DNA of 64,000 nucleotides from Paenibacillus sp. (GTDB lineage Bacteria > Bacillota > Bacilli > Paenibacillales > Paenibacillaceae), in the NCBI GenBank assembly GCA_023512345.1, contig JAILZT010000002.1, forward strand, positions 434,001 to 498,000. The letters are read 5' to 3'. The translations under genes were made by a program, and so were the position numbers. The notes under the pieces are model-generated. The model worked only from the letters and a program-made list of their open reading frames with translations. It was not told the origin of the DNA and searched no databases. Below, piece after piece: positions 4,301-34,344 of the stretch; the stretch's first letter is position 1; every line of letters starts with the position of its first letter.

Positions 4301-7300
4301 ATCATATTGCTGCTGAACATAGGGTTCACTAAAGGTTTTCCGATATAAGCAGGCGTAACAGTGTAAGGAATGGTAGTGCTAACCGCTTGGAAGTCTGCAC
4401 TGGATCCGATCTGACGGGCGTATACCTTCAGTTCATACTCGCCCGGTGCAGGCGGAAGCCATATATAAGTAAAACTTTTACTGTATTCGTTCAAATCTGT
4501 CCATTCACCATCGGACTTTTTGACCAGAAAACGATATTCAGCAGCGCTATTAGCTAGCCCCGTAAGCGTAACCGGTACGTCCACAGGTCCGGAAGTGCCT
4601 TCTTCCGTATTCAAATCAACATGGGTTAATAACCCACCGCCACCACTTATCTTGATATAGTCTACATCCATCCATCCCCAGCTATTGGTGATGTCAATGG
4701 TGTTCATCCCTGCCTTCAATTCATACTGGCCCAGTATGGCGTCCTTCCATTCGGAGGTTTCTTTAAACGTATAATCGGCCAATTTCTCATCATTTAGGGA
4801 CACGGTATTTACTTTCGATCCGCCAATTGTTTTGTATCGGATAGAAATTCTATAAGTTCCACCCACAGCCACATCGGCATTAATTCTCAAATTGTCTCCG
4901 CCTGCATCAAAGCCCGTCACAAAGCCGTTACCAGAGTATCCATTCTCTTCTGTAGATACCGTTACGCCCGTTAAGGTCCCCTTCTCCGCCTCATACTTGA
5001 GAGAGCTATACAGATCTTTAGGAAGTTCATCCTTCGTTATCACGTATTCGCTATTGTATACCTTATTAATATGCTCCAGAGAATTCTGTTTGCCGTCTCT
5101 AATAAAATGACCACTCCATGTACTGAAGAAACTCCAATCTGCCTTATAGGACTGCAGCAAATCCGGATCGGGGATTGGACCATTTTCGGCGAGTGCTACA
5201 ACTTTCTTATCATTAACTAAGGACACCACGCTGTCATACTTAGCAATACTTGGGTTATAGTCGCCCTCAGGACTGTAAATATCTACGCTGGCAATATCCA
5301 CGACATCATCACCCGGGTACCATTCTGGACTCTCAGAGTTCCATACCCAGATCAAGTTATTCAGCTTATGCACATTCGTCAAACGATCGTACACCAGATG
5401 GTACAGTTGCTTAGTCGCTTCTGGTCCTTTGGATCCCCACCAGAACCATCCACCTTGCGCTTCGTGGAGCGGTCTCCATAGAACAGGAACGTTCGCATCC
5501 TGAAGACGCTTCAGTTGTACAGCAATAGCATCGATATCCCTTACAAGCAGCTGGTAATCCTCTGAATCTGGGTTATCCATCGCATACTTTACATCAAAGC
5601 TGGTTGCATATTCGTAGAAACCTCTCCACCATTCTTTTTCCGGCACGTCATAAAGACCTTTCGGTGCGTTCCAGTGCCATGCGAGGGCAACTATCCCCCC
5701 CTGCTGGTACCATCCGATCATCTTTTCAACTTCTGTTGAGGTAGCCCCACGTTCCACTCGGGAAGGTGTATAGTCGATGAGATCCGAACTGAAAATAGCT
5801 GGATACTTACCCGTCTGTTCATGAATCCATTCGACCTCTTCCAGATTTTGCTGACCGGAAATAATATTCTTTCCATAACGGTCCACCATGTAATTAATCA
5901 GCGCTCTTGCTTCCGGTGTAGCGTTCGGATTCACAAGCGAGCTTTCAATATCATGAGCCTGCGCCTCAGCTGCAGGAGTCAGCTTAACATAATCGATATT
6001 GTACCAACCCCAATGAGGTTTGAACTCGATGGTATTCTCGCCGACGTTCAGCATAGCCTTGCCACCTGATACCTCTTTGAACTCAGTCGTGGGTTCAAAA
6101 TGGACTTCACTTGTTTCACCATTCACCACCATTTGGCTGAACTTATCCCCATATGGAGCACTGAAACCAACCGCAATGTCATACATTCCTGCGGCAGTCG
6201 CATTATACGTGAGTTTTAGTGAGCCCTCTTGCTTAAAATTCGCATAACCTGTTCCAGAGAACCCAGTTCCCGAAGTGCCTATCGTAACATCTCCCGTCAT
6301 TATTCCATCCTCTGCTTCCAACTTACTGCTGACAGCAGGCGGGTTGGCAAGTTCAACCTTAATGTATTCAATACCATAATAGCCCCACTCTCGCGTGAAT
6401 TTAACCGTATTCGTACCGGCATTCAGCATGACTTTGCTTGCCAGTTTCTCATTTACCACGGTTCCTTCTGCAGGAGCATCAAGCGTGATTCCCCCGACGC
6501 CCATGTCATTGACAACCAGACCGGTATTTTTACTCCCGTAACCACTTGGAATATAGTAGCCTACGCTCAACTTATAAAGATCTGCCTTGTCCACGTCAAC
6601 ATTGAATGTTGCAGTACCGTCTACATCTGTAGAGTTTGGATCCTCACTATAAAAGAAGGATACATAACCTTCACCGGCGTAAAGGTCATCCCCATCTTGC
6701 GGGGTAGCGCGCTTTTCAACCCCGTAGCCATTCAGGACCGCGTCTTTGTAGGTAACTACAGTTACGCTCGCCCCTGGAGGAGGCGTTATTGGAGGAGTAA
6801 CCACTTCCCCTCTAAGCTTTAACCGTACATTATCCAAGTAGATCGGACCACTGTACGTCAGCGCCGAGTTTTTAGCCAACTGCACAACGAATTGTTTTTG
6901 TGTTAATGCCGCCGAAATGGAAGCGGTCTCATGAATCACAACGTATTCGTTATTGTTAATGGCTGTCTTCTCAACTTCAGAAATCGTCCGTTCGCTGAAT
7001 CCCAGATTTGCCCACGGTCCATTCATAGCCGTACCTACCGCGAATTTCCCTCCGAATGAAGCGGGTACATACACGTCGTAAGTTACAGATTCATAGCTAC
7101 CAACCGCAGCGGCCAGCTCTACAGTCAGTGCCGCCTCTTCCCACTCGGAATCACCGCCCAAGGGTGCATAATCAGTATTTATCTTAAGAGAATATGAGTT
7201 GCCTTGGACCGATAAATCCTGACTTACGGATAATGGATCTATTGCTGCAAAACCCTCGCCCCACCCTTTATTCCAGCCCTTCGTTGTACCCTCTTCGAAA

Positions 7301-7431
7301 TCGTAGACAATGTCGGCTGTAGTCTGCGCACTTGCTACTGGTTTAGGTGGAACAAACAATGAACCTAACAATGAACCTAACAAAGAAAAACATAATAGTA
7401 TCGAAATTTTTCTTTTATTCCATTGCGACAC
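1372..7431 (-). CDS. Multidomain secreted, SLH-anchored enzyme: N-terminal CBM27-like region, CBM35-like modules, GH26 beta-mannanase, CBM35-like, SGNH/sialate O-acetylesterase-like domain, three SLH domains
   Basis: Signal peptide; GH26-like block VNPNATPEARALINYMVDRYGKNIISGQQ...PLHEAQGGWFWWGSKG; esterase block FGDVYLASGQSNM...VLWYQGESNW; C-terminal SLH motifs (ITRAEMATLSARAL, STRAEAAVVIYRLL). Confidence 0.88.
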   Translation of the reverse strand: MSQWNKRKISILLCFSLLGSLLGSLFVPPKPVASAQTTADIVYDFEEGTTKGWNKGWGEGFAAIDPLSVSQDLSVQGNSYSLKINTDYAPLGGDSEWEEAALTVELAAAVGSYESVTYDVYVPASFGGKFAVGTAMNGPWANLGFSERTISEVEKTAINNNEYVVIHETASISAALTQKQFVVQLAKNSALTYSGPIYLDNVRLKLRGEVVTPPITPPPGASVTVVTYKDAVLNGYGVEKRATPQDGDDLYAGEGYVSFFYSEDPNSTDVDGTATFNVDVDKADLYKLSVGYYIPSGYGSKNTGLVVNDMGVGGITLDAPAEGTVVNEKLASKVMLNAGTNTVKFTREWGYYGIEYIKVELANPPAVSSKLEAEDGIMTGDVTIGTSGTGFSGTGYANFKQEGSLKLTYNATAAGMYDIAVGFSAPYGDKFSQMVVNGETSEVHFEPTTEFKEVSGGKAMLNVGENTIEFKPHWGWYNIDYVKLTPAAEAQAHDIESSLVNPNATPEARALINYMVDRYGKNIISGQQNLEEVEWIHEQTGKYPAIFSSDLIDYTPSRVERGATSTEVEKMIGWYQQGGIVALAWHWNAPKGLYDVPEKEWWRGFYEYATSFDVKYAMDNPDSEDYQLLVRDIDAIAVQLKRLQDANVPVLWRPLHEAQGGWFWWGSKGPEATKQLYHLVYDRLTNVHKLNNLIWVWNSESPEWYPGDDVVDIASVDIYSPEGDYNPSIAKYDSVVSLVNDKKVVALAENGPIPDPDLLQSYKADWSFFSTWSGHFIRDGKQNSLEHINKVYNSEYVITKDELPKDLYSSLKYEAEKGTLTGVTVSTEENGYSGNGFVTGFDAGGDNLRINADVAVGGTYRISIRYKTIGGSKVNTVSLNDEKLADYTFKETSEWKDAILGQYELKAGMNTIDITNSWGWMDVDYIKISGGGGLLTHVDLNTEEGTSGPVDVPVTLTGLANSAAEYRFLVKKSDGEWTDLNEYSKSFTYIWLPPAPGEYELKVYARQIGSSADFQAVSTTIPYTVTPAYIGKPLVNPMFSSNMILQRDKEAEISGWQEPGTSVTVVIDDKTLTSNANSKGQWKVELGVYPAGGQHTITVTDGTETITYTNVLFGDVYLASGQSNMAFKLSEATNAQSEISNANHSDIRFITIPEQTSRYPVSLIDSQAKWQVTTPDTAANLSAVGYFFARELNQETGIPVGIIFSAVGGTKAENWTSYETLQTMPSLVQSSNDIRSGAVNMEIATSPTALYNGMIAPVAPYKLKGVLWYQGESNWGEYRHNQALPKLIEDWRSTFNNNQLTFTIFQISAYGTIQSEDNPAQDDGNPGLPVIREAQLNTVLNDDRTTLVVTTDVGNPADIHPTNKQDVGIRGAMSVLGKFYNQPVVYSGPIYQSMTTTGNAITLSFDHKGTGLMAGVKTGLDSVQLDASGNLKGFAIAGSDGKFYWADARVEGDKVVVSSEQVSAPVAVRYNWNDAPIGNLYNKEGLPASPFRTDKASYLYVEGGDVTGIHEVGEKITLTATPPKPGMKFNKWVGDTKSIQDIKAASTFLIMTSAPYTEVAPSYVKEGETPPGPPVPNPGTDATPQAPVAVTPPMPNLLLAPGMDTEIIKALDKVLSTQAVQDAIEKTSVIDVSKSIKVTGDKAKLELDPKTFVSLFKTVKDQADKLNAKLQAVHANAAKAKVIVTLELGDQTSKNTEVSIPLSFVQQAKDAGMDKIAVKVNGVTLSVDVDQFKGNTTLVIDQLPPSTAAKATTFKVASDVYNFEFLDASNNPVTFIKPVIVKLPIANADGMNTDLLVLAKIVDNKLEFYGGKYNAEGKYFESERKSFSTYVVVENKVEFSDTASVQAWAGKEISYTAAKGIVQGKAAGLFAPNDKVTRAEFAAMIVKAFHLEDASAVATFNDVKAGDWFGSSVAAAAKAGIINGRTTSTFEPNATISRAEMATLSARALEMVKGYKNTSETAAALAKFEDAASIHSSLSEGVALASSLGVVVGSNNRFNPDGLSTRAEAAVVIYRLLNL

Positions 7432-7658: not shown

Positions 7659-7848
7659 GGGGCTGGGGGATGCTTGGGGTAGGGGCGGATGCGGGGGCTG
7701 GGGTACGTGATGCGGAATATGCGGGGGATCAGGGGAGTGTAGGGATTGTAGAGAATGTTTTTGGGGATGGGGGGATACGCTATGGATGGGAGCCGGGGAA
7801 TGTGGGATATGCTGGATATGTTGGATATGCGGGATATGCGGGAATGCG
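7659..7848 (+). repeat. G-rich low-complexity tract with G-quadruplex motif and 9-bp tandem repeats
   Basis: GGGGCTGGGGGATGCTTGGGGTAGGGG at 7659-7685; GGATATGCT GGATATGTT GGATATGCG GGATATGCG GGAATGCG at 7805-7848. Confidence 0.8.
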
Positions 7849-7936
7849 TATGTGTAGTAGGTGGGCAGATAAGTTCATCCACGTCAAAACGATTTAGTAA
7901 CTAACTTTGGGTATTGTATCAAACTCGGGAGATTCT

Positions 7937-8118
7937 TACGGACTCAGGTGACCCTATTTGATTAAAATACTCACATTCCGCATGCATACGGACTCAGATG
8001 CACCTATTTAGGCTAAAAGGGCTTAATTACGGCTTGTGAAGAACAAATAACGTCTTCTGAGTCCGCATGGACTTCAAGTCAGCCATTTGTGCAACATTAA
8101 GGGCTCTGGAGTCCGTAA
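7937..8118. repeat. Four-unit palindromic intergenic element, copy 1
   Basis: CGGAC cores at 7939 and 7989 (direct, 50 bp apart); inverted GTCCG cores at 8061 and 8111 (50 bp apart). Confidence 0.8.
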
Positions 8119-8282
8119 GCAGTTTGATCCCTTGGGTTCGGCGGCTGGCTAGTTACATTTATTTTAGTTACTATAGAATATTTCAGCACTTACATAAGCG
8201 TATGTATTCAGTTATACTTTTTCCAGTTAGATTACTTCTACATTAATCGCCGGGTACCCAATACTAAGGAGGATATTCATAC

Positions 8283-9200
8283 ATGAGAACTATGAAACTA
8301 GGAACCAGTAGTTTAGAGGTGCCGGTTGTTGCAGTCGGCTGCATGCGTATAAATTCGCTGGACAAGAGTGAGGCGGAGCAATTTGTTCAAACCGCTCTCG
8401 ATGAGGGTGCAAATTTCTTTGACCATGCCGATATATACGGTGCTGGTGCCTGTGAGGAAATATTCGCGGATGCCATCCATATGAATGAAAGTATTCGTGA
8501 AAAGATCATTCTACAATCTAAATGTGGCATTCGGCAGGGAATGTTCGACTTTTCTAAAGAACATATTCTAGATTCAGTTGATGCTATCTTGAAGCGCTTG
8601 AGAACCGATTACCTGGATATTCTGCTTCTGCATCGTCCAGATACATTGGTAGAACCAGAAGAGGTAGCCGAAGCTTTTGATCTTCTTGAAAGTTCCGGAA
8701 AAGTGCGGCATTTCGGCGTTTCCAATCAGACTCCTATGCAGATCCAGTTACTAAAGAAATTCGTGAAGCAGCCACTTGTTGCCAATCAGCTCCAGTTAAG
8801 CATCACTAACGCCAACATGATCTCCCAAGGATTTAATGTGAATATGGAGAATGAAGCCGCCGTTAACCGTGATGGCCTCATATTGGATTATTGCAGACTG
8901 AATGATATCACGATTCAGCCTTGGTCTCCATTTCAGTATGGATTCTTTGAAGGCGTTTTCCTTGGAAGCGACAAATTCCCCGATTTGAATCAAAAGATCG
9001 ATGAAATCGCCAGTAAATATGAGGTAAGCAACACGACAATTGCTATCGCGTGGCTGTTGCGCCATCCTGCACACATGCAACCGGTCATAGGCACCATGAA
9101 TATTGATCGGTTAAAGGATTGCATTCAAGCTGGCGATGTCCATCTCACTCGCGAAGATTGGTATGCGATCTACCGTGCAGCAGGTAATGTACTTCCCTAA
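8283..9200 (+). CDS. Aldo/keto reductase family oxidoreductase
   Basis: MKLGTSSLEVPVVAVGCMRI...FFDHADIYGAGACEEIF...LDILLLHRPD...KVRHFGVSNQTP; RBS AAGGAGG. Confidence 0.92.
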   Translation: MRTMKLGTSSLEVPVVAVGCMRINSLDKSEAEQFVQTALDEGANFFDHADIYGAGACEEIFADAIHMNESIREKIILQSKCGIRQGMFDFSKEHILDSVDAILKRLRTDYLDILLLHRPDTLVEPEEVAEAFDLLESSGKVRHFGVSNQTPMQIQLLKKFVKQPLVANQLQLSITNANMISQGFNVNMENEAAVNRDGLILDYCRLNDITIQPWSPFQYGFFEGVFLGSDKFPDLNQKIDEIASKYEVSNTTIAIAWLLRHPAHMQPVIGTMNIDRLKDCIQAGDVHLTREDWYAIYRAAGNVLP

Positions 9201-29550: not shown

Positions 29551-29735
29551 TATGCGGACTGAGAAGACCTTATTTGAGCAAAATCAGACAATTCGGGAAT
29601 TATACGGACACCAGAGACGCTATTGAGCCCTTTTCTTCCTAAAAGAGGCTTTTTTTATTTGAACAGTGTCTCCTGAGTCCGCATGGGATTCGCATAACCT
29701 TTTGAGTCGTAAATAGCGGCGATACAGTCCGCATA
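29551..29735. repeat. Four-unit palindromic intergenic element, copy 2
   Basis: CGGAC cores at 29555 and 29605 (50 bp apart); inverted GTCCG cores at 29677 and 29727 (50 bp apart). Confidence 0.8.
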
Positions 29736-34132: not shown

Positions 34133-34152
34133 CTGATAAATAAAGACAAATG

Positions 34153-34254
34153 CTTATCTATCAGGCTGTTCACCCGCTGGAGTTAGCACAGTATCCTTCA
34201 GAGATCTGTTGCTGAGGCTTCAAAGGGCCAGTCCCTCCACCTCTCTGGATAAGA
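34153..34254 (-). ncRNA. SAM-I (S-box) riboswitch aptamer
   Basis: Minus strand CTTATCCAGAGAGGTGGAGGGACTGGCCCTTTGAAGCCTCAGCAACAG...GATAAG; S-box core GGTGGAGGGACTGGCCC..TGAAGCC..CAGCAAC. Confidence 0.95.
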
Positions 34255-34344
34255 AATAATTTGATTTTTAACTACTATAGCGATCTATGTTTCAGCTGTC
34301 AATATATAAGTAGATTTATGTGCCCGTTCGCAGCGCAGGCTTCA

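Follow-up and report, generated by a model that had tools for sequence, protein, structure and literature searches.

The window, that is, the whole stretch of 64,000 nucleotides of Paenibacillus sp. DNA that was analysed, contains a 185-bp element made of two direct and two inverted boxes, located in the gap between an open reading frame (ORF) ending at 7882 and another beginning at 8283. A second copy lies further along the window. Their features are as follows.

7935..8119, no strand assigned: four-box element, copy 1; the resemblance to its nearest genomic relatives stops at these edges, give or take a few bases
7936..7958, plus strand: box 1 of copy 1
7986..8008, plus strand: box 2 of copy 1
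8046..8068, minus strand: box 3 of copy 1 (inverted)
8096..8118, minus strand: box 4 of copy 1 (inverted; variant GGACTCCAGAGCCCTTAAT)
29551..29735, no strand assigned: four-box element, copy 2 (subfamily B), with boxes starting at 29556(+), 29606(+), 29680(−) and 29730(−)

With the first G of GGAC as reference, the boxes of copy 1 start at 7940(+), 7990(+), 8064(−) and 8114(−), a spacing of 50-74-50 bp, and the geometry of copy 2 is identical. Sequence, coordinates and the arrangement of two direct and two inverted units are as given in a preliminary description of this DNA, which had also noticed the matching spacing of the two copies; its value of 50-72-50 was counted from another reference base, and the fixed geometry itself holds. 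As it had claimed, the element has no ORF: none of 80 aa or more crosses copy 1. Each box is about 23 bp long, with a consensus of about TAYGGACWCAGNNGMCSYTATT, in which GGAC and GMCS are the halves of an imperfect dyad. This dyad is clearer in distant relatives, where boxes of the CTAACGGAC...GTCCGTTAG type were found at locus L442, downstream of the partner gene described below. Directly to the left of copy 1, at about 7660-7860, is a G-rich tract of loose repeats (gggatatgcgggatatg...), and the 89-aa minus-strand ORF covering it is probably no gene. The window also holds an ordinary SAM riboswitch (RF00162, 87.8 bits) at 34151-34255 (−), and a third element, of subfamily B, is found some 530 bp to the left of its first base (G000:C12:433285-433469).

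A similarity search of the source genome returned 45 matches, and 160 were obtained with a degenerate box pattern, against 71 for its reversed control. Once assembled, the matches corresponded to 39 element loci, most of them with all four boxes, so that about 40 copies of the 185-bp element are scattered in the intergenic regions of this genome. Sixteen loci form subfamily A (inner spacing 73) and 11 form subfamily B (inner spacing 74); the others, window copy 1 among them, are a mixed group. Generic boxes paired at exactly 50 bp occur 47 times, and the pattern read backwards 0 times, which together with the copy number places the element well beyond chance. Neighbouring genes showed no preferred orientation in the source genome (21 tandem, 11 convergent, 7 divergent).

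Covariance model R1, which spans the whole element, matched 71 of 100 congeneric species, 29 having no detectable element, and 69 of 121 genomes of the family, in 15 of 19 genera. Many congeners gave at least 26 matches, which corresponds to at least 13 elements, as one copy can score on both strands. The dispersed, intergenic, ORF-less repeat family constrained in spacing that had been proposed is thus found across the Paenibacillus genome set. A generic pattern for box pairs (CG N13 YTATT, repeated at 50 bp), searched on either strand, had 0 to 197 matches per genome, and its reversed control 0-2. Named carriers include Paenibacillus, Cohnella, Gordonibacillus, Ammoniphilus, Alkalihalobacterium, Anaerobacillus and Terrihalobacillus. 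Tandem arrays of 3-8 whole elements with variable linkers were seen at L214, L146, L207, L384 and L385; when the genes flanking such arrays were considered as candidate partners, only ordinary genes were found. At L146, ORFs 6570-6902 and 6869-7429 read through the arrays to give repetitive peptides (VRGLQRPYLPKIDPSSPQNPQI). Hypothetical proteins translated from element arrays are probably artefacts, and some small hypothetical ORFs are probably misread copies. Around position 5679 of L067, two boxes form a compact palindrome of about 50 bp, possibly a half element.

The spacing was 49-52 / 72-75 / 49-52 in 183 elements, and exactly 50-74-50 in 73, and it stays constant while the sequence drifts to less than 65% identity. 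Among the 228 same-strand box pairs 49-52 bp apart at the named loci, 218 stood at 50 or 51 bp; no same-strand pair was closer than 49 bp, and the inverted inner pair stood at 73-75 bp. In 87 elements of less than 65% mutual identity, conservation resides mainly in the boxes. The box core differs by genus, and the boxes within one element change together.

Boxes 1/4 and 2/3 being inverted, the elements can be folded at about −41 to −76 kcal/mol, and a structured RNA or a single-stranded DNA hairpin could be what the geometry maintains. The preliminary description had accordingly paired units 1+4 and 2+3 into one long stem-loop. However, only the boxes are common to the two arms; the intervening sequence is unpaired, and in non-redundant elements no excess of spacer complementarity was found in the stem register. 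Changes on both sides were restricted to 2 of the 17 predicted pairs, and pair counting gave 97% of paired cells with 20 double changes, all from these two pairs. The letters that do correlate are box positions −3 to −1, and they correlate among all four boxes, about equally across all box pairs, nested or otherwise, which points to a common recognition sequence rather than to base pairing. Matches to Rfam 15 were at chance level both at the gathering threshold and at a relaxed E-value, and the elements have no preferred orientation relative to genes. A folded nucleic acid is therefore a very improbable explanation. Where selection on structure or a mobile repeat family had been suggested, the constraint on spacing and the dispersed family are retained, and the stem-loop as the source of the constraint is not.

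The geometry of a protein-DNA complex accounts better for the spacing rule. When the A+T profile was averaged over 75 non-redundant elements, a period of about 10.2 bp was seen across 183 bp, ending at the element edges (±91 bp). Peaks lie at about 0, 10.6, 21, 40.7, 51, 61, 71 and 90.5 bp from the centre, with an A+T content of 0.8-1.0 against about 0.25 in the troughs, and the profile is flat near 0.48 beyond ±92 bp. Moreover, elements of genus g7 measure 195 bp instead of 185, their central spacing being increased by 10 bp, about one helical turn. Such phasing is as expected for protein-wrapped DNA, and from these sequence features we infer a DNA-wrapping protein assembly. In four distant families of Bacilli, four boxes that differ in sequence lie after the partner gene, spaced about 50-60-50 bp from centre to centre (50-60-50; 49.5-61.5-50.5; 51-60.5-53; 49.5-60.5-51.5), and in a fifth family the boxes have steps of 41-41-41.5-52, the boxes at these five loci having been chosen by eye. 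At L443 and L445 (families f13 and f6), the gene homologue precedes an array spaced otherwise (41-41-41.5-52, or other repeats), which suggests further architectures.

Comparison across genomes of the proteins encoded beside elements revealed one family recurring in four genera, and no recurrent transposase. In the source genome, its gene lies on another contig than the window (G000:C33:343026-343670(−)) and is preceded, at 208 bp, by an element. Among the best 30 loci of a profile search for this family, each with about 2.6-3.6 kb of DNA, an element was found beside the gene in 29, the exception being at a contig edge. It was 3′ of the gene in 27 loci, the nearest element being 27-411 bp away, and 7 loci had elements on both sides; L384 has an array of eight and L385 one of four. 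As a control for background density, 200 kb of sampled G053 DNA contained 2 elements. Group-2 paralogues were ruled out as partners, as 0 of 20 of their loci had an element. Decayed copies of the partner gene, interrupted by stops, are present in G053, G071, G056 and G002.

The family and the element also co-occur among the 100 congeners: species with and without element numbered 69/13 when the family was present versus 2/16 when it was absent (Fisher p = 5.6e-9, for species that share ancestry). With group 1 alone the figures were 48/3 versus 23/26 (p = 1.3e-7, species again not being independent), the group-1 gene being absent from 23 of the 71 element-bearing species. Within genus g7, 14-31 box pairs were counted in genomes with the gene versus 1-10 in those without (p = 0.0014). 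A search of plasmids and phages detected one distant homologue on plasmids and none in phages.

These linkage data bear on whether the element is an ordinary MITE, a transposon derivative with two sites per end for some unrecognised transposase, next to which the nuclease-like gene would simply hitch-hike. The two direct and two inverted sites do resemble multi-site transposon ends, and G053 has many near-identical copies with conserved flanks. Yet transposon ends do not need a fixed inner spacing, no transposase recurred beside elements, and a single gene is linked to the element in nearly all loci (29/30). We consider this origin unlikely.

The partner protein is about 220 aa long. Group 1, which is 58-78% identical to the source-genome copy across genera, shares the stretch EVRDFxNGYRYLDLA...EIQ...HARD. 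Searches of Pfam, NCBIfam, PADLOC and PHROG gave no assignment of weight, no curated family cut-off being exceeded; the paralogues match REase_MTES_1575 (6e-5) and DUF559 (0.003) in Pfam below cut-off, and the linked group matches neither. A structure model (mean pLDDT 84) has a core of three strands, a helix and a strand, followed by a C-terminal winged helix. With this model Foldseek retrieved winged-helix proteins and, weakly, nuclease-containing chains, with no significant match in the PDB. On the basis of the sub-cutoff MTES_1575 match of the paralogues, a conserved D...E-x-Q motif and the modelled fold, the protein is predicted to combine a PD-(D/E)XK-like nuclease with a winged helix. 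The last motif residue is Q in the linked group, whose nuclease may consequently be inactive.

The position of the elements along the chromosome differed between lineages. On four complete g7 chromosomes (dnaA at base 1), 30/30, 17/18, 20/22 and 12/13 elements lie in the origin half. One subfamily is oriented with the replichore, judged by GC skew, in 32 of 32 cases in G053, and one in 16 of 18 cases in G048. The source genome has no significant replichore bias (9 co-directed versus 18 opposed), neither for subfamily A nor for B. The oriented G053 subfamily (L412-L431) is a larger repeat, with conserved flanks of about 160 bp upstream and 110 bp downstream of the core that include a TTGACA-like/TATAAT-like stretch. 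In general, repeat units reach variably beyond the element core. In the two closest species the element is missing from some sites, whose junctions are not clean, and no target-site duplication is visible in flanks that are too diverged. Fork-linked copying would explain the replichore orientation, and a positional role the g7 pattern.

Such a positional role is the basis of another explanation, in which the elements are protein-bound sites that structure or anchor the origin-proximal part of the chromosome, in the manner of RacA/ram or ParB/parS, and are kept for this service rather than by copying themselves. Besides the near confinement to the origin half, several g7 species share some elements with 70 bp of identical sequence, and the gene is strongly conserved. 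On the other hand, no origin bias was obvious in G048 or G053, and sites serving the chromosome fit poorly with a family undetected in 29/100 congeners and varying from 0 to 197 box pairs per genome. As a general explanation we find it rather doubtful.

We favour, as the probable reading, a REP/RAYT-like system of unrelated parts, in which the window element would be one dispersed copy whose partner is one chromosomal gene encoding a predicted PD-(D/E)XK-like and winged-helix protein. Each box, as an imperfect dyad, would be bound by a protein dimer, most likely via the winged helix. With about 5, 6 and 5 helical turns between successive boxes and A+T steps in phase, four dimers could wrap some 183 bp in a single symmetric assembly. 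The copy adjacent to the gene would be a founder or control copy, and the scattered ones would derive from a copying process probably using the partner protein, possibly as its catalyst, which in two species or more would take place at the replication fork. More tentatively, and somewhat below even chances, these systems may be a new class, independent of RAYT/REPIN, in which a protein-wrapped, nucleosome-like four-site unit and a nuclease-derived partner keep the same 50-60-50 geometry with unrelated boxes across families of Bacilli, and take a chromosome-scale role in some genera. If true, the arrangement of a repeat with a domesticated nuclease, as in RAYT/REPIN, has evolved two times or more, from unrelated enzymes, and would hence be useful, and the four-box system would be a ready test case for why bacteria retain such repeats. 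Phased bending every 10 bp or so over 18 helical turns would also be an unusual natural substrate for DNA wrapping in bacteria.

Several known systems share some of these features. MITEs and the larger palindromic repeats (ERIC, bcr1, RUP, Correia) are short, ORF-less, intergenic and dispersed, and fall into subfamilies, as the four-box element does; the latter differs by an inner spacing fixed across families and by neighbouring genes among which no transposase was found. RacA/ram, Noc and ParB/parS rely on dispersed, origin-proximal dyads, two features shared by g7 elements, whereas here the units are four-site and 185 bp long, the protein is unrelated and the occurrence patchy. The Vsr-like DUF559 and REase_MTES_1575 nucleases are matched below cut-off by the paralogues and have a similar acidic motif and alpha-beta core, but the four-box partner has a fused winged helix, and the open-licence papers searched report no repeat family linked to these nucleases. 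Judged from the open-licence literature only, in which we found no description of the element or of its partner protein, the two-part system looks undescribed. The closest parallel is with REP/REPIN elements and RAYT (PMC2817692, PMC3116915, PMC8049555): in both cases, many intergenic inverted repeats accompany a low-copy chromosomal gene itself flanked by repeats, with no close homologue of the four-box partner on the phages or plasmids searched, and the difference in REPIN counts with and without RAYT (PMC8049555) is paralleled by the g7 pair counts with and without the gene. The partner, however, is not a Y1/HuH protein, the Y1 transposase family (PF01797) having 0 matches in the source genome, and a REP is a 20-40-bp hairpin with a conserved tetranucleotide head, where the present element has 185 bp, four boxes, helical spacing and unpaired spacers. 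The four-box element and its gene act like a REP/RAYT pair (PMC2817692), yet are not a member of that family, as there is no Y1 protein and the element has another construction.
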